Assembly (NCBI RefSeq): GCF_005166025.1
Contig: NZ_CP028923.1
Span: 2,792,001 to 2,856,000, forward strand
From: Mangrovivirga cuniculi
Lineage (GTDB): Bacteria > Bacteroidota > Bacteroidia > Cytophagales > Cyclobacteriaceae
Direction of reading: 5' to 3'
DNA length: 64,000 nucleotides
Shown piece by piece: positions 4,119 through 11,962 of this stretch. The position numbers and the translations under genes are program-made. Within the stretch, counting starts at the first letter, position 1, and every line of letters starts with the position of its first letter. The notes under the pieces were generated by a model, which saw only the letters and a list, made by a program, of their open reading frames with translations, was not told the DNA's origin and did no database searches.

Positions 4119-5069
4119 ATAAAGATAACTTCCGATGCCCTGGTTCGTGTCTCCACGAAACAGATTAAACATTAATAAATTCTGCTCCCTGGTTCAAGCG
4201 TCGCGCTTGGACCGTTTATATAAATTGGCAGGATTACCTTCGGTGATCCTGGTTTTTGGGTCGGTGCTAATGAAAACCCATCCCGCTATCGCGATATATT
4301 TTTTTTTGCTTGTACTGCCCAATTTCAAGCGAGCTTGACTCATATAATCTTGCATCATCTTTAACCAACTGCCCCTGGTTCAAGCGTCGCCCTTGGACCG
4401 TTTATAATGATAAATTAGCAGGATTACCTGGCGGTGATCCTGATTTTTGGGTCGGTGCTAATGAAAACCCACCCCCTATCGGGGGCTAGTTTTGTTGTTT
4501 ATGCCAGTCAAGATCAAGCAAGCTTGGTATCATATAATATTGATCCATCATAATCTACTGCCCCTGGTTCAAGCGTCGCGCTTGGACCATTTATAATGAT
4601 AAATTGGCAGGATTACCTAACGGTGATCCTGAGTTTTGGGGCGGTGCTAATGAAAACCTTATCGCTATCGCGATATTTTTTTTTGCTTGTACTTTCCAAT
4701 TTCAAGCAAGCTTGGCATTTCTCCGATGACGCCCTGGTTCGTGTCTCCACGAAACAGATTAAACATTAATAAATTCTGCTCCCTGGTTCAAGCGTCTCGC
4801 TTGGACCGTATTATTGATTTACATGTAGATGATCTTTGGAAAATATAATTTCATTTTGATAAAGTATTCCTATCATCCCTCCATCCTATTAATCCTAGTT
4901 CAGACAAATATCAGGATTACCTTCGGTGATCCTGAAATTGGGTCGGTGCTAATGAAAACCCATCCCGCTATCGCGGAATTGTTTTGTTGTTTTAAGCACA
5001 AGCTCAAGTAAAACTTGGCTTGATCTTAAAACAACAAAACCCAGCACTTTTGTGCTGGGTTTTCATTGT
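4119..5069. repeat. Hairpin-rich tandem repeat array A (left flank of the RHS island)
   Basis: Four degenerate units of roughly 190 bp in a stretch without a credible gene. Each unit combines short inverted repeats: TTCAAGCG/CGCTTGGA, CAGGATTACC/GGTGATCCTG (at 4229, 4419, 4608 and 4912), a CCCGCTATCGCG-type palindrome after GTGCTAATGAAAACCC, and a larger arm beginning TTTTGTTGTTT. A further hairpin, TTCGTG/CACGAA, lies at about 4134 and 4738. Blocks are near-identical to array B at 11209-11886: the segment at about 4714-4930 matches 11520-11745, and 4267-4405 matches 11270-11409. Small open frames inside it are by-products of the repeats. Sequence from 3907 to 4118 shows nothing recognisable. 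Confidence 0.85.
4978..5063 (-). repeat. Long inverted repeat plus terminator hairpin (copy in array A)
   Basis: GTTTTGTTGTTTTAAG pairs perfectly with CTTAAAACAACAAAAC across a ~28-nt centre, and is followed by the AAAACCCAGCAC/GTGCTGGGTTTT hairpin. The equivalent element next to tRNA-Pro (11797-11882) has a different but equally perfect inner stem (TTTATAGC/GCTATAAA), so the pairing rather than the sequence is conserved. The second hairpin is the same terminator that follows tRNA-Pro. Confidence 0.75.
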
Positions 5070-5084
5070 CGGGGTGGCAGGATT
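5070..5084 (-). other. 15-bp remnant of the tRNA-Pro 3' end
   Basis: CGGGGTGGCAGGATT is identical to the last 15 bases of the tRNA-Pro gene at 11889-11903 and is preceded by the same terminator hairpin and ATTG linker. After it the sequences diverge. It forms a direct repeat with the intact tRNA gene and flanks the RHS island, as attachment-site duplicates do. A segmental duplication of the tRNA downstream region would explain it equally well. Positions 5085-5244 show nothing recognisable. Confidence 0.75.
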
Positions 5085-5244
5085 TTAACCCTACCCTTAA
5101 ACCCGTTTATTTTCAATGACTTACGAACTATTTGAAATATTAACTCACCGAATTACTCACTTATAATTTGATGTTTTTTGATAAAGAAAAGTTAATTGAT
5201 TTGGAAGAAAGTTAAAAACTTTAAAACAAAATGAATCATTATAA

Positions 5245-5681: not shown

Positions 5682-6865
5682 TAATAGTAGTTTTTTGTTT
5701 CTGGTAAAGATAATTCAATTGGAGGTCCATCTAATAAATTAATATTGATTATTCTAGCTTTATTTGAATCCATATCTGAAGATAATTGAATAGATAATCG
5801 TTCTAATAATTTAAGATAATCTTTAGATGTACCACCTTTAAAGATATTTTTATAATCACTCATATTTTTCGAATTCCCATATTTTTTAATCATTTCATAA
5901 TTTGTTAAATCAATTTTTGTTTGATCATCCAAATTAGCATCAAATACACCGGTCGCATCCGCTAGATCTATATTTCCTAATATATTATCAGCCTCTTTCA
6001 TCCTTGCACCTGCTAAGTCTCTTTCTGCTTGAGCACGGTCTATTTTATAAGCTTCATTTAGTATATCTCCCTTTTCCATACTAATTGGAATATCGATTAA
6101 TATACTAGTTAATGGGTATGCGGGATGTCTACCTTTACCTATTATTTTATTTACGTTATCTGCTCCTCGTATATATGATGCCCTTTCTAAAAGACTTCCA
6201 ACACTTGGATGACTTTTTAAAAGCCAATAAGCTTGAATCCCATAATTGTATGTCCCAGATCTCTTATTAGAAAAAGGATGTTTAATTATACCTGTCATAA
6301 TGGGAATTATATTGGGAGCCGGGCCTACTGCATTACCATCATTATCAACCATATTTATAGGGTTGTTTCCTAGTAAACTATAAGGAGACACATTAGGATA
6401 TTCATCAGATAATGCATCAACTGAAATCCATATACTTGATTTTGGATTGCTATATCTAGCCCCATAGTAATACAACCCGGTTTCTTCGTCTAACTCTTTG
6501 CCGTTAAACAAGTATGGAGTTCTATTTGTATTGCTGTGTTCTTCAACAAAGGTTTCGCCGAAGGCCATATACTCTAAGTGCTGGTATACTTCTCCGCTTG
6601 CATCGGTGATGTAGCTAGAGCTACCAAGATGATCCGGGTGATAGTAGTACTGGAATGGTTCTGAGGCGGAACCACCATTTCCTCCTTTGCCATTAAGCTG
6701 GCCTGGAGGAATTTTACCGCTTTTACCGGCTGTTAAGATCTCTCCGTTCTCGCCTAAGAATTTCAGGTTCTTACCAGCCCTGCATTCCGGCTCCTCGCTA
6801 AAAATGTTCACTGGACATTTTCTAAACGCTCGGACCTCCACATACTTTGCCATTCTTGGCGCCAT
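5678..6865 (-). CDS. RHS copy 1: core end plus variable toxin tip
   Basis: The frame contains the RHS-associated core (YYYHPDHLGSSSYITDASG, then FNGKELDEETGLYYYGARY, DALSDEYPN and the NNPINMVDNDG hinge), then about 210 residues unrelated to copy 2, which form the variable C-terminal tip. The tip (helical, with HPFSNKRSG and GKGRHPAYPL) matches no toxin family I recognise. The listed start (ATG 6865) is an accident of the 67-bp palindromic insertion at 6774-6840, which shifts the reading frame. The natural RHS frame would come from upstream (remnant to 7333), so this is an orphan 3' cassette without signal peptide or YD-repeat shell. It could still serve as a donor of tips by recombination with an intact RHS gene. 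Confidence 0.7.
   Translation of the reverse strand: MAPRMAKYVEVRAFRKCPVNIFSEEPECRAGKNLKFLGENGEILTAGKSGKIPPGQLNGKGGNGGSASEPFQYYYHPDHLGSSSYITDASGEVYQHLEYMAFGETFVEEHSNTNRTPYLFNGKELDEETGLYYYGARYSNPKSSIWISVDALSDEYPNVSPYSLLGNNPINMVDNDGNAVGPAPNIIPIMTGIIKHPFSNKRSGTYNYGIQAYWLLKSHPSVGSLLERASYIRGADNVNKIIGKGRHPAYPLTSILIDIPISMEKGDILNEAYKIDRAQAERDLAGARMKEADNILGNIDLADATGVFDANLDDQTKIDLTNYEMIKKYGNSKNMSDYKNIFKGGTSKDYLKLLERLSIQLSSDMDSNKARIININLLDGPPIELSLPETKNYYY
6774..6840. mobile_element. 67-bp palindromic element E1 inserted in RHS copy 1
   Basis: RHS copy 2 carries only 12 bp (9493-9504) at this point, while copy 1 carries 67 bp, so this is a filled site beside an empty one. The element starts CCAGCCCTGC, ends CTCGGACCTCCA, and has a central hairpin AAAATGT/ACATTTT. 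Related elements lie at 7014-7080 and 9286-9350. It shifts the RHS frame. It behaves like the in-gene palindromic repeats known from Rickettsia (RPE), but I cannot place it in a named family. Confidence 0.8.
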
Positions 6866-7013
6866 AGTCTATTTTGTCTCCACCAGCTACACGGTTGTCT
6901 ATTGCATCATCATAACCACCACCAAGCTTACTTACTATTCGCTGGCTTTCGATATAATAATGCTTGGTATAACTTCCGCTTCTGATATAATAAATAAAGA
7001 ATATTTGTTTTTA

Positions 7014-7080
7014 CCTGCCCTGCAATCTGGCCCTTCGCTAAATATGTCCACTGGACATATTATTAACGCTTAGTCCTCCA
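7014..7080. mobile_element. 67-bp palindromic element E2 inserted in RHS copy 1
   Basis: Same length and ends as E1 (CCTGCCCTGC ... TAGTCCTCCA). The central hairpin is AATATGTCC/GGACATATT; relative to E1 the third stem position changed from A-T to T-A on both arms. The corresponding place in RHS copy 2 (9648-9686) has 39 bp of ordinary RHS sequence instead. About 30 bp of extra A/T-rich sequence (6984-7013) precedes the element. Confidence 0.78.
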
Positions 7081-7145
7081 TATTTCCGGAGCCACTTCTG
7101 TGGCTACCGTCTTTGTAGACTGCCTGTCCCTGGCTTTTGCCTTTT

Positions 7146-7313
7146 AACCTGGATTATACAATAGAAATCGTGATGAGATTTTAAAACACTAAGAAAGAGA
7201 CACTTATGTTGATGAGGCATAACACCGCTATGGTGATTCAACAAACTTGTGTTAAGAGGCTCTTTCAAAGAGTTTTATAGTCGGAATAGATTCTCTCTTG
7301 AATATTTCAGGTT
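7146..7313. mobile_element. MITE-like 168-bp inverted-repeat insertion
   Basis: It splits RHS copy 1 between two points that are contiguous in copy 2 (about 9752-9755). The ends are AACCTG and CAGGTT in inverted orientation. Inside, an 18-bp inverted repeat (7182-7199 with 7260-7277) matches at 15 positions, and the centre has CACC/GGTG. There is no coding sequence. The structure suggests a small non-autonomous element, but no transposase with matching ends is present in the window. Confidence 0.6.
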
Positions 7314-7339
7314 TAATACTCTTGTCCGGATTGAAAAAA

Positions 7340-7365
7340 AAGCCTCCAGGATAATCTGAAGGCTT
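7340..7365 (-). terminator. Terminator of immunity gene 2
   Basis: Stem AAGCCTTCAG/CTGGAGGCTT (one mismatch), read on the minus strand and followed by eight T. It lies about 140 bp beyond the stop of the immunity gene. Loop and stem resemble the terminator at 5245-5270, suggesting that the two toxin-immunity cassettes share a common origin or were duplicated with their terminators. Confidence 0.7.
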
Positions 7366-7432
7366 CAATATTATATTTTGATCAGCTTGTTAATCTTTAT
7401 TAATGTTGTAAATGCTGATTCAGACAATTTAG

Positions 7433-7500
7433 CCGAAGTTACTTTGCCGAACGCGTTTTGTTGAAAAAACAACGCGCTTGAGTGGAGTCTGAAGTTACGC
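7433..7500. repeat. Short quasi-palindromic repeat flanked by GAAGTTAC
   Basis: Direct repeats GAAGTTAC (7435-7442 and 7491-7498) flank an inverted segment, ACGCGTTTTGTTG then six A then CAACGCGC. It lies between the stop of immunity gene 2 and its terminator. It looks like one of the interspersed palindromes common in Bacteroidota intergenic regions. The remaining bases of this 7366-7505 gap show nothing else. Confidence 0.45.
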
Positions 7501-7505
7501 TATCG

Positions 7506-8275
7506 TTAACCTCCTGACATTAGCGGTTTTTGATAATTTGTTGGATTATTTTTGATTTGATATGTAGCCCATAAATAGGTTGCTATTTTTGTGAATATTC
7601 CTGGAACATTATCCCCAGAATCAAATATAAACTCAATATTTTCATCTGAAATAAGTTTTAAATGAAAATATTTTGCATGAATAAAATTTGATATGTATTT
7701 CTTTTTAGAGCTTGAAAAATTAACTTGGTTTAACATGTTCTTTAGGATTAATTTCTCACGATCATCAATATTGTAAATATTACTAGTTGAATCATCAAAA
7801 TTATATACTCTGAACTCCTTGTCATTTAAATTTATTTCAAACTTTAAATCTTGACATATAGGATCATTTGCACATGAAGAAATTATTAATATGAAGTTTG
7901 GGAATTTATTTTGTCTTAAATTATCAATTCTGGTTAATAATAGTGAATGCTTACTCGCTGTACTATCTAATGATTTTAAGAAGAGTGTATCCGAATTAAT
8001 ATTCATTACTTGGTAAACATCTAAAATCACCTCTCCTGTACTATTATAATATGGAGTTTCAATATAAATGGTATCTTCTTTTAATTCCCACTTTGAAAAA
8101 GGAAAATACTCTTTATATAAAACTAAGGTGTCATCAAAAACAAAGAAATCTTCTGAAGTATTATCTTGCCAATACCCATTTAATGATTTTTTATTAAAAA
8201 TTTCTTTATTTGACTTATTTTCATTACACGAAATGAGACAATAAAAATCCCTATTACTAGTAAATATCTTTTCAT
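7506..8275 (-). CDS. Lipoprotein, candidate immunity protein for RHS tip 2 (frameshifted near its start)
   Basis: The open frame runs without stops from about 8256 to 7506. An ATG at 8275 would give a normal lipoprotein start (MKRYLLVIGI, then FYCLISCNENKSN) if one more A were present in the five-A run at 8243-8247; as written the start and the body are in different frames. The full product would be about 256 residues, with lipobox LISC and a beta-rich body (SLNGYWQDN, then FFVFDDTLVLYKEYFPFSKWEL) reminiscent of lipocalin-like domains, though I cannot assign a family. The ATG lies 1 bp after the RHS tip stop codon, so toxin and immunity are coupled. The frameshift may be real or a sequencing error. 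Confidence 0.65.
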
Positions 8276-8276
8276 A

Positions 8277-9182
8277 TTATTTTAAATGGTCTATAATATC
8301 TTCTCTATAACTCGCGGTTATAGTATTAAATGTCGGATGGTTTTTCTGCATCATATAAATTTGTTTATGATCTCCAGGTAAATGACTCAATCCCATGCTA
8401 GCGTGTCCTTTAAACTCATGAACACCTAAAATACTAATGACGTTTGAAACTGTAATTAAATGTTTTGTTCCGTATTTTTGACTATAATTTGCTGTTACTT
8501 TAATAGTTCCATTTGACGCACTACCTGTAAATTCATAAGGTTCTCCGGTTTCTGGATTTATTTGACCTTTATAGAGACCTGAAGCATTTTGACCAAATCT
8601 CATTTTAGAACCATCATTATAATTTTCACTTGAAATTGAACGTCCACCGTCAATCGAAACTTGTTGATTATAAAGTTTATCAATATTGTAACCATATTTT
8701 TTTAATATTGATGTAAATATTCTAGATGCTGCTTTTGCAGATATACCTGATCCATTAATCCCTACACTTCTTTCATCTAAATCCTTTTGGAGTGCTAAGT
8801 TTGTTTGAGTCCTATCATTTAGCGTTTCTTCTCCATGAATAAATTTAATATCATTAAAATCTGATTGTTTTAAAATTCTTATGTTATCAGTTTCTTTATT
8901 ATCCTCGTACAAGAAGTCTCCATTTTCATTATAATACCTGTCAAATGCTCCATCAGGATCAATTCTTACAACAGGATTATTTTGAACATAATTATATGGT
9001 GACAACCATGATCTATGTTCTGCCATCGGATCCACACCCAAAAACATGCCAATCTGCGCATCATAATACCTAGCTCCATAGTAATACAACCCTGTTTCTT
9101 CGTCTAGCTCTTTACCATTAAACAAATATGGAGTTCTATTTGTGTTGCTGTGTTCTTCTACAAAGGTTTCGCCGAAGGCCAT
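8277..9182 (-). CDS. RHS copy 2: core end and putative HEXXGH metallopeptidase toxin tip
   Basis: The frame holds the end of the RHS-associated core (FNGKELDEETGLYYYGARYYDAQIGMFLGVDP, residues about 21-52; hinge NNPVVRIDPDG) and a ~220-residue tip. Near its end the tip has HEFKGH (residues 255-260), then GLSHLPGDHKQIYMMQ and HPTFNTITASY. HEXXGH is a zinc-binding signature (as in M49), so I infer a zincin-type peptidase toxin. Related RHS tips with an HE..GH and HPT...T.SY ending occur in Bacteroidota. The listed ATG (9182) is internal; the natural frame would come from the RHS core, but insertions at 9186-9246 and 9286-9350 cut it off. Immunity candidate follows 1 bp downstream. Confidence 0.7.
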   Translation of the reverse strand: MAFGETFVEEHSNTNRTPYLFNGKELDEETGLYYYGARYYDAQIGMFLGVDPMAEHRSWLSPYNYVQNNPVVRIDPDGAFDRYYNENGDFLYEDNKETDNIRILKQSDFNDIKFIHGEETLNDRTQTNLALQKDLDERSVGINGSGISAKAASRIFTSILKKYGYNIDKLYNQQVSIDGGRSISSENYNDGSKMRFGQNASGLYKGQINPETGEPYEFTGSASNGTIKVTANYSQKYGTKHLITVSNVISILGVHEFKGHASMGLSHLPGDHKQIYMMQKNHPTFNTITASYREDIIDHLK

Positions 9183-9185
9183 GTA

Positions 9186-9246
9186 TTGCTCACAGTTGTG
9201 TTTATTTTTTTAAGGAGTTCGCGAACCTCGTTCCTCGGTTTCAAAA
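9186..9246. mobile_element. 61-bp insertion with GTTCGCGAAC palindrome in RHS copy 2
   Basis: RHS copy 1 has only 7 bp (CTCTAAG) at this point. The insert contains the 10-bp perfect palindrome GTTCGCGAAC, flanked by GGA and CTC, then CGTTCCTCGG. Read in the RHS frame it introduces a TAA stop. It differs from elements E1-E3, so it is a second family of small palindromic insertions in the same gene. Confidence 0.65.
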
Positions 9247-9285
9247 TGCTGGTATACTTCTCCGCTTGCATCGGTGATGTAGCTC

Positions 9286-9350
9286 CCACCCTACAACCTG
9301 GCCCCTCACTAAAATCTTCACAGGAGATTTTCTAAACGTTCGGTCCTCCA
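9286..9350. mobile_element. 65-bp palindromic element E3 inserted in RHS copy 2
   Basis: It replaces 12 bp found in copy 1 (6617-6628), in the middle of the HPDHLGSSS motif. Ends match E1 and E2 (CCACCCTACA ... CGGTCCTCCA). The central hairpin is AAAATCT/AGATTTT: compared with E1, the G-C pair became C-G on both arms. It ends the upstream RHS frame with a TGA inside the element. Confidence 0.8.
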
Positions 9351-11208
9351 ATGATCCGGGTGGTAGTAGTACTGGAATGGTTCTGAGGCTGAACCGCTTC
9401 CTCCTTTACCGTTAAGCTGTCCTGGAGGTATCTTACCACTTTTACCGGCTGTCAATATTTCTCTGTTCTCGCCTAAGAATTTCAGGTTCTTAACAATGCC
9501 GTCCCATACTTTTCCTTTCTTAACACCGTAGTCTACTTTGTCTCCACCAGCAGCTCGGTTGTCTATTGCATCATCATAACCACCTCCCAGCTTACTTACA
9601 ATACGCTGGCTTTCGATGTAATAGTGCTTTGTATAACTTCCGCTTCTTAACACGATATATGGATTTACATATACCGTAAAGTTACCCATATTACCGGAAC
9701 CTGATTTGTGGCTACCGTCTTTGTAGACTGCCTGCCCCTGGCTTTTTCCTTTCAATACTCTTGTTCCGGATGCATCATACACGTAGTGATGTATTGCTCC
9801 GTTGTCCATAATCGAGCGGATTCTGTTTTCTTCATCCCAAACTATGTTTCTTCGCTGTCCACTGACATCGTGGGTCCAGCCGGTCAGGTTTCCATTTAAA
9901 TCGTACTGGTATGACTTGTCACCAATGTGTACCGGAGCATTTGGCTGCTCTTTTCCATACTCATAGGTCATATCGTAGGTAGTTCGTTTTTGGGTTACCC
10001 AATTATTACCTTCACCACCACTGCGCTCGTGGGTCTGGTTTTTTCTTAAGATTCCACCAACGGTATTGTATTCCATTTCCAGATTATATCGATGCTTTTC
10101 ATTGCTTCCGGTATAATTACCTTCTGCAGAGACTAAACGATACAGATCATCATATTCGTATGAGTATGTTGATGAACCACCCATCAGGTCACTTGATGGA
10201 ACTGCTGCCCTGTTTGTCAGGCTAAGGATGTTGTTTACCTTATCGTATTCATACACATTATCCATCATGTCGCGACCCTGGCTGGTCTTGGTATTCATGT
10301 TTTTCAGTCTTCTACGATCTTCTTCATAAGAATAGGTAGTCTTAGTTCCGTTACCATATTCTAAGAATACTCGCTGACCAAACTTATCATAGCCTAGTTG
10401 CTCCACGTAGTTGAACTTGTACCCTTGCTTCTTCCCTTTCATGCTGCGAAGTAACCCACCAGCATTATAAGTATATTCTACTTTCTCACCGTCAGGGTAA
10501 GTCATTGACATTAATCTGTTCCAGGTGTCATACTCCCACTCGGTAACATAGGTTTGCTCGGTGTGTCCTGAAATGACTACGGTACGAATATTCTTGATCA
10601 CCTCTCCTAGTGGACCGTAGAAGAATTCCTGTGCTCCGGAGGCATCTTCCTGAAGAACTACCCTACCAGCACGGTTATTGTCTGCTCCAGCCTCACCATA
10701 GGTATAAGTCACATTGTTTTCCGGATTTTCCGGATAAATGATCTTTTCTAAACGATTGTAATCGTATTCATAAGTTACTGCTCCACCAGATTCTCTCAGG
10801 TTAGCAGTTACTGTTTCTCTTAAGTTACTTGCAATGTCATAACTAAAAGTTGTCAGACCGGCATCCGGATGATCACGGCTGATTCGACGACCAAACCAGT
10901 CGTATTCGTACAATGTTTTGTTTTCACGATCATCCATTGAGGCGATCTTCTCATTCATCGCATTGTACTCAAAGCTTGTCCAGACACTTCCATCACTTGT
11001 TACATTTTTAACTGCCGTGACACGTTCTCTGATATCAGTATATTGAGCAGTTCGAATTCCATTTGGATCAATGGTAATGGTTTCAAACATTTTTCGACCC
11101 TGGCGATCTTCACCAAAACCGTATTTCATTTCGGTTTTAGCCCCATCCGGAAGATAGGATCTTAATGCTCTACCTAGTACATCATATTCCGTTGTAGATG
11201 GTGTGACT
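9318..11208 (-). pseudogene. RHS/YD-repeat protein copy 2, core fragment (5'-truncated, 3'-interrupted)
   Basis: Over 600 residues of YD repeats of the RHS shell type (TTFSYDIASNL, YEYDWFGRRISRDHPDAG, TYEYDYNRLEKIIYPEN, YQYDLNGNLTGWTHD, VWDEENRIRSI, HHYVYDASGTRVLKG), leading to FQYYYHPDH. The frame is open from about 11208, but no start codon, signal peptide or N-terminal domain is present; the first ATG is at 11129. The 5' side breaks directly into repeat array B, and the 3' side ends in element E3. It is therefore a remnant of a polymorphic toxin whose shell would be thousands of residues long. Expression without an upstream partner is unlikely. Confidence 0.85.
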
Positions 11209-11854
11209 TAGATTAAACATTCTTTTTATTTATGGCAGGATTACCTGACGGTGATCCTGGTATGGGGTCGGTGCTAATGAAAACCCATCCCGCTATCGCG
11301 ATATTTTTTTTTGCTTGTACTGCCCAATTTCAAGCGAGCTTGACTCATATAATCTTGCATCATCTTTAACCAACTGCCCCTGGTTCAAGCGTCGCCCTTG
11401 GACCGTTTATATAAATTGGCAGGATTACCTGCCGGTGATCCTGATTTTTGGGTCGGTGCTAATGAAAACCCATCCCGCTATCGCGGAATTGTTTTGTTGT
11501 TTATGCCAGTCAAGCTGAAGCAAGCTTGGCATTTCTCCGATGACGCCCTGGTTCGTGTCTCCACGAAACAGATTAAACATTAATAAATTCTGCTCCCTGG
11601 TTCAAGCGTCTCGCTTGGACCGTATTATTGATTTACATGTAGATGATCTTTGGAAAATATAATTTCATTTTGATAAAGTATTCCTATCATCCCTCCATCC
11701 TATTAATCCTAGTTCAGACAAATATCAGGATTACCTTCGGTGATCCTAATTTTTGGGTCGGTGCTAATGAAAACCCATCCCGCTATCGCGGGAATGGTTT
11801 TGTTGTTTATAGCAACCTAGCTCAAGCGAGCTTTGCTAGTCCGCTATAAACAAC
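11209..11854. repeat. Hairpin-rich tandem repeat array B (right flank of the RHS island)
   Basis: Three units of the same ~190-bp repeat as array A, with CAGGATTACC/GGTGATCCTG-type hairpins at 11236, 11420 and 11726 and the TTCAAGCG/CGCTTGG and TTCGTG/CACGAA hairpins between them. The block at 11520-11745 is essentially the same as 4714-4930. The last unit carries GTTTTGTTGTTTATAGC (11797-11813), pairing perfectly with GCTATAAACAACAAAAC (11842-11858). I see no gene in this stretch. Confidence 0.85.
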
Positions 11855-11882
11855 AAAACCCAGCACAAAAGTGCTGGGTTTT
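11855..11882 (-). terminator. Terminator downstream of tRNA-Pro
   Basis: Perfect 12-bp stem AAAACCCAGCAC/GTGCTGGGTTTT with a 4-nt loop, 6 bp after the tRNA-Pro discriminator base on the minus strand. An outer inverted repeat (AATGAAAACCCA near 11766 with TGGGTTTTCATT at 11875-11886) encloses it together with the long hairpin of array B. Duplicated at 5036-5063. Confidence 0.75.
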
Positions 11883-11887
11883 CATTG

Positions 11888-11962
11888 TCGGGGTGGCAGG
11901 ATTCGAACCTGCGACCTCCTCGTCCCAAACGAGGCGCGATAACCGGGCTACGCTACACCCCG
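11888..11962 (-). tRNA. tRNA-Pro (anticodon TGG)
   Basis: Folds as a 75-nt tRNA: acceptor stem CGGGGTG/CACCCCG, anticodon stem CTCGT/ACGAG with loop TTTGGGA (anticodon TGG), T arm GCAGG-TTCGAAT-CCTGC and discriminator A. No CCA is encoded, as usual in Bacteroidota. It is transcribed together with the tRNA-Ser upstream. Its 3' end is duplicated at 5070-5084 on the far side of the RHS island. Confidence 0.95.

Follow-up and report, generated by a model that had tools for sequence, protein, structure and literature searches.

We describe a family of short palindromic DNA elements, here named R1, that came to light as three copies (E1, E2 and E3) within RHS-gene remnants of Mangrovivirga cuniculi, in a 64,000-nt stretch of contig NZ_CP028923.1 (positions 2,792,001 to 2,856,000; hereafter the window). 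R1 is a dispersed repeat family found across many Bacteroidota genomes; its copies share a two-stem structure with covariation; it enters new places with loss of target bases; and it prefers certain neighbours. Our data are consistent with a non-autonomous mobile element that would move most likely as a folded single strand, a reading for which we hold belief and doubt to be about evenly balanced.

The first-pass annotation of the window had placed E1–E3 in one family with shared ends and size, and the grouping is borne out: the three copies align from end to end as a single element of about 65–70 bp, and a core pattern with up to three mismatches finds two matches in the window (E1 and E2; E3 is one base short, hence missed) and none in 100 shuffles. 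The genome-wide covariance search that it had suggested, with a model founded on E1–E3 and two copies beside the transfer-messenger RNA (tmRNA) gene, together with BLAST, detected nine copies at E <= 2.2e-6 in the host genome (a single contig of 4.66 Mb), five of which had been used to build the model. The window accounts for three of the nine, another three closely follow the tmRNA gene, and the last three are at group II intron reverse transcriptase (RT) genes; one weak match (G000:C1:519922) was rejected as a chance hairpin within another sequence. Under stricter filters, the covariance model gives 11 and 7 copies in two congeners, and 21 of the 59 searched genomes, the host's own included, contain a match; the R1-bearing genomes include Lunatimonas salinarum (Cyclobacteriaceae, Cytophagales), and at E <= 0.01 there are 114 matches in G021 and 25 in G024. 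In public genomes, at least 120 stretches fit the core pattern. Seventy-six of the 80 matches listed have titles that we read as Bacteroidota (Flavobacteriaceae, Cyclobacteriaceae, Bacteroidales and others) and four are titled otherwise (Rickettsiales, Mobiluncus, Psychrobacter, Clostridia); the covariance model fits 79 of these 80 loci, and the Mobiluncus locus in part only. The exact core pattern has no match in viral contigs, a single R1 element used as query has none in plasmid and phage records, and no Rfam family matches the elements; a word-based search of the open-access literature found no paper on the family, though one may still exist. The pooled collection comprises 205 elements at 138 loci; when the elements are compared together with their 20 bp flanks, 200 of them are distinct.

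The alignments indicate that one strand of R1 folds into an imperfect hairpin: an outer stem with the consensus GG.C.CC-TC-GC / GC-TC-GG.CC, in which TC/TC stays unpaired; an asymmetric internal loop with TA on one side and CTTAAC on the other; and an inner stem, AAAAnnnTCC / GGAnnnTTTT, that is free to vary at its middle positions provided that these pair. Both the TC/TC mismatch and the internal loop recur among copies. All 44 inner-stem cells of the five founding copies are paired, and four of the nine pairs have changed on both sides (39 of 500 shuffles reach this pair-change count and none of 500 reaches the covariation score). For 64 copies (60 distinct), 98.1% of 539 cells are paired, against at most 57.2% in slid-partner controls, and eight of nine pairs have changed on both sides (116 cells vs. 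30.2 in shuffles); both alignments were fitted to a model already holding the inner stem, and G-U pairs are allowed in the count for the 64 copies. Mutual information over 88 distinct rows recovered the inner stem as well as outer pairs that were absent from every model. In a set of 110 copies that has one locus in common with the earlier set and is otherwise separate from it, the outer stem forms 3.46 of 4 pairs, whereas partners shuffled 1000 times give 2.95 on average and 3.15 at most, and removal of the shared locus leaves 3.46 vs. 2.95 (highest shuffle, 3.19); this test rests on 67 distinct arm pairs from the 110 rows, 18 rows being unparsable and the remaining difference being repeats. 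Counted in place and with G-U pairs allowed, the two-stem structure has 94.5% of 1539 cells paired, with two-sided changes in 13 of its 15 pairs; some inner-stem letters are set by the fetch pattern, so that this stem is tested by its free letters. Support for the structure comes from covariation, not from folding energy: single-copy DNA folding is not special for E1 (z −0.68) or E3 (z −0.47), and is special for E2 (z −2.69). The paired changes that the first-pass annotation had noticed in the central stem are real, and were understated; the structure that it drew was incomplete, as it missed the outer stem. Its conclusion that the stem is either under selection or needed for movement goes further than compensating changes alone can carry, as template switching at hairpins is another described source of paired changes (PMC8794818).

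Filled and empty loci, whose comparison had also been proposed, were examined in an alignment of five RHS copies drawn from three genomes of one genus (two from the window, two from G001 and one from G002). Five R1 sites are filled in 1, 2, 4, 2 and 4 of the five copies (13 of 25 in total); empty copies carry ordinary RHS sequence. About 6–12 bp of target, as read from the alignment, is missing at filled sites, and no target duplication was seen at any of the five, bases having been lost instead. Replacement without target duplication, as originally suggested, is upheld. Two of the three empty sites in the window are real, with flanks that align in all five copies, and the third, put at 39 bp, was probably drawn too long (Table 1, S5). 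Neither window copy is a full-length RHS gene, so the insertions are into RHS remnants; at the two sites tested, E1 and E3, the RHS frame through the element encounters stops. G000 and G001 have the same stem at site S5, G002 a different one, so that a site can swap its copy or receive a new insertion.

R1 persists in sparable DNA: RHS remnants, group II intron genes and sequence downstream of tRNA and tmRNA genes. The open reading frames (ORFs) within 1.2 kb of the pooled elements, whose cluster families were confirmed on representatives, are RHS-like at 12 loci, RT at 8 and TonB receptor-like at 6. Twenty-eight of the 205 elements (12 of 95 in a first set and 16 of 110 in a second; 17 loci; tandem copies counted singly) have a tRNA or tmRNA gene at a distance of 250 bp or less, where a rough estimate of the expected genome share is about 0.5%, and 23 of the 28 are downstream of the gene on its strand. 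The first set was partly chosen for multiple hits, and the second (10 of 79 loci) is the fairer measure of this proximity. In several cases the order is gene, terminator, inverted piece of the gene end, R1, direct copy of the end, and terminator. A direct tRNA or tmRNA 3′ end of at least 11 nt is matched in the right flank of 16 of 205 elements (1 at an offset of 300 bp and 0 at 600 bp), and an inverted 3′ end of at least 11 nt is matched in the left flank of 13 of 205 (3 and 0 at the same offsets). The direct copies reach 23 nt (L186, L196 and L221), and the neighbouring genes encode tRNA-Ser, -Gln, -Lys, -Asn and -Arg as well as tmRNA, each with its own end copied; L200 has the same arrangement at the 5′ end of tRNA-Leu. 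No tRNA end was found at the R1 copies in RHS and RT genes. Four tandem copies with a 69-bp period follow a tRNA-Ser gene in L154 (4194–4468). A tRNA origin of R1, considered for its likeness to D-arm letters, was dropped as superficial.

In L159, L182, L186 and L198 a larger inverted repeat or terminator-like hairpin encloses the element in its loop, and flanks that pair at −14 kcal/mol or better occur in 24 of 192 elements compared with 6.3% of permuted pairs, while the mean is only slightly shifted (−8.02 vs. −7.56 permuted, sd 0.23; lowest of 60, −8.07). At five loci picked by eye in several Flavobacteriaceae (L180, L183, L184, L202 and L213), R1 abuts the 3′ end of a thiamine pyrophosphate (TPP) aptamer upstream of genes, with aptamer scores of 30.2 to 46.7 bits that fall below the Rfam cut-off of 54.3; R1 is possibly used there as part of the expression platform. 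In L194 (4577–4670), a Flavo-1 RNA match below the Rfam cut-off (30.4 vs. 42 bits) lies about 30 bp from R1.

A look for a linked transposase or RNA-guided enzyme had been suggested, and no enzyme is clearly linked: some genomes that carry R1 lack Y1 transposase genes, and some lack group II intron maturase genes. No convincing R1 was found near 58 Y1 loci, a part of all Y1 matches (best E, 0.62), and no Y1 ORF was found in 80 R1 loci (612 kb) with a profile that recovers all 58 Y1 loci, 33 of which built it. A further 59 R1 loci contain one Y1 ORF, in G002, which is intact, has 184 aa and the motif YIHNNP, and lies 1.5 kb from R1 copies without flanking repeats like R1. Y1 genes occur in 47 of 59 genomes and their numbers correlate weakly with those of R1 (rho 0.30, p 0.02); two draft genomes, G006 with nine R1 copies and G011 with one, have no Y1 match. 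In the host genome, two Y1 genes (L091 and L099) are surrounded by long direct repeats of their own that are unlike R1. Maturase matches are present in 11 of 21 R1-bearing genomes vs. 7 of 38 others (Fisher p 0.009), with a weak correlation in numbers (rho 0.42). The group II intron RT was rejected as the mover, since ten R1-bearing genomes (G002, G003, G006, G007, G015, G023, G024, G028, G030 and G045) have no maturase match; a helper role remains compatible with the association, and R1 and maturase may both simply mark genomes rich in mobile DNA.

Comparison with known systems places R1 near, and outside, several of them. With repetitive extragenic palindromic (REP) elements, their bacterial interspersed mosaic elements (BIMEs) and the associated tyrosine transposase RAYT (TnpA-REP), R1 shares a short dispersed palindrome, conserved mismatches and inverted pairs, the last in one genome, G024, where head-to-head copies stand 17 bp apart (L119, L121, L125 and L128). 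The BIMEs of REPs have a comparable inverted-pair arrangement, and the G024 pairs suggest single-strand handling of R1. REP copies flank a Y1/RAYT gene, whereas no Y1 gene flanked by R1 was found; the GTAG- or CGTC-type foot tag of REPs is not conserved in R1, the 8 nt beyond the stem in 89 rows containing GTAG in 8, GGAG in 5 and CGTC in 2 on one side and in 0 on the other. Rickettsia palindromic elements (RPEs) are short palindromic inserts inside protein genes and elsewhere that leave the host reading frame open in coding genes. R1 too is a short palindromic insert within protein genes and elsewhere; it differs from RPEs in the stops met by the frames through E1 and E3, in its phylum and in its tRNA-end neighbours, so that the likeness to small palindromic elements in Cytophagales noted in the first-pass annotation stands and its choice of RPEs as the class does not. 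Miniature inverted-repeat transposable elements (MITEs) are likewise non-autonomous, dispersed and palindromic; in contrast to them, R1 has ends that differ from each other, no terminal inverted repeats, no target duplication and no parent transposon that we could see. R1 works like REP and RPE palindromic elements, yet three of their defining features were looked for and not found (Y1 genes flanked by copies, a conserved foot tag and open frames), and for that reason it is filed as neither. It is also longer, at about 65–70 bp, than REP elements, given as 20–40 bp in PMC3733652. Template-switch mutations at hairpins, as outlined in PMC8794818, would yield paired stem changes and inverted flank copies, but they are a mutation process, and R1 is a repeat family.

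In our proposal for R1 as a mobile element, folded single-stranded DNA would be handled by a host or trans-acting enzyme, new copies would enter elsewhere and replace roughly 6–12 bp of target (the size in the RHS examples), and hairpin-templated repair might help to keep the arms complementary. Several results weigh against it: no mover was found, with Y1 linkage sought in both directions and maturase compared across genomes; no insertion in progress was observed; congeners share some of the sites, which are therefore old; a target loss of about 12 bp is unusual for a transposase; inner-stem pair types in the 64 copies do not exceed shuffles (462 of 500 reach the observed number); and the distribution is patchy, with 6 of 198 genomes from a phylum-wide draw matching a second model at E <= 1e-4, a low figure partly due to an insensitive scan that scored 25 candidates per genome. 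The competitor that we take most seriously, while judging it rather unlikely, dispenses with a dedicated enzyme: hairpins and repeated genes would give rise to copies, and spread them, through template switching, fold-back replication and ectopic gene conversion. Its marks would be the paired changes and the inverted tRNA-end copies, the process has a precedent in PMC8794818, and the contrast of inverted left and direct right tRNA/tmRNA-end copies with the few at offsets, the excess of strongly pairing flanks and the different stems at S5 all fit it; such processes would not readily yield more than 100 dispersed copies in one genome with one conserved sequence of 65–70 bp, and overall flank pairing is barely above permuted. 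A bolder reading, which we consider unlikely, is a self-propagating hairpin without a transposase: when replication produces fold-backs at tRNA ends, at terminators or in repeated genes, R1 would capture their apex, each round copying neighbouring sequence inverted, and the stem would evolve and grow by template switching.

That R1 is instead a REP-type element tied to a Y1 transposase seems to us improbable. Its small palindrome, conserved mismatches, many copies and inverted pairs in G024 fit, as do the wide occurrence of Y1 genes, the weak R1–Y1 correlation and the intact ORF of G002; the lack of R1 beside the 58 Y1 genes, the lack of a Y1 ORF in 80 R1 loci and the single one in 59 others, the presence of R1 in G006 and G011 without a Y1 match, the different repeats at the host's own Y1 genes and the scarcity of tags outside the stem speak against it. 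Remnant attachment sites of elements that integrate at tRNA 3′ ends, with the other copies secondary, would account for the direct 3′-end copies of up to 23 nt and for the downstream, same-strand placement; they would not account for the same R1 beside tmRNA and several different tRNA genes when the copied end is in each case that of the neighbouring gene, for RHS and RT copies without a tRNA end, or for an inverted copy, and this explanation is very unlikely. We give hardly more than nominal weight to R1 as a functional structured RNA or regulatory hairpin that is not mobile: strong covariation with G-U pairs allowed and the five TPP loci are in its favour, but no Rfam family matches, R1 occurs in both orientations inside RHS and RT genes, and paralogues differ in whether they carry it. 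Misalignment of diverged RHS copies, a possible artefact given that the window copies differ by several per cent, is practically negligible, being refuted by R1 copies outside RHS and opposed by the five-copy alignment as well.

Where covariation is seen, selection on the structure is commonly taken as proven. A hairpin that moves, turns over its stem letters freely and stands between inverted and direct tRNA-end copies offers a natural test of whether covariation reflects selection or the mutation process; if R1 does propagate without a transposase, its paired stem changes would record its way of moving and not selection on function. As a mobile element, R1 would give Bacteroidota a REP-like family without the usual enzyme found at its side.

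Table 1. R1 copies, empty sites and RHS copies in the window
Feature	Coordinates	Strand	Basis and remarks
E1 (R1 copy)	6774..6840	+	RHS site S4, filled in copy A; model match 90 bits
E2 (R1 copy)	7014..7080	+	RHS site S5, filled in copy A; 87.6 bits
E3 (R1 copy)	9286..9350	+	Fills RHS site S3 of copy B; model match of 80.1 bits over 9285-9352
S3 empty, RHS copy A	6617..6628		12 bp here, missing at the E3 site; five-copy RHS alignment
S4 empty, RHS copy B	9493..9504		About 12 bp missing where E1 sits; five-copy RHS alignment
S5 empty, RHS copy B	9648..9686		Mostly diverged RHS sequence; lost piece probably <39 bp; alignment and inference
RHS copy A	6452..7147	-	3′ part of an RHS core resembling copy B; carries E1 and E2
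RHS copy B	8277..11129	-	ORFs 9318-11129 (Pfam RHS_repeat) and 8277-9182, split by E3 and another insert

The RHS region of the window has further repeats. An unrelated insert of about 54 bp (~9187–9240) is present in RHS copy B, both G001 copies and G002, and is not in copy A. Direct repeats at 4678–5090 and 11492–11909, made up of 265 bp (94%) and 62 bp (90%), bracket the region; the 62-bp repeat is a copy of the tRNA-Pro end with its terminator, and the RHS region therefore sits in a duplication beside tRNA-Pro. Another repeat beside tRNA-Pro, at 4242–4994 and 11249–11809, consists of seven copies of a 71-nt unit (GGTGATCC...GGGTCGGTGCTAATGAAAACCC...) with hairpins of its own, and may be a unit of the R1 kind for a different tRNA.

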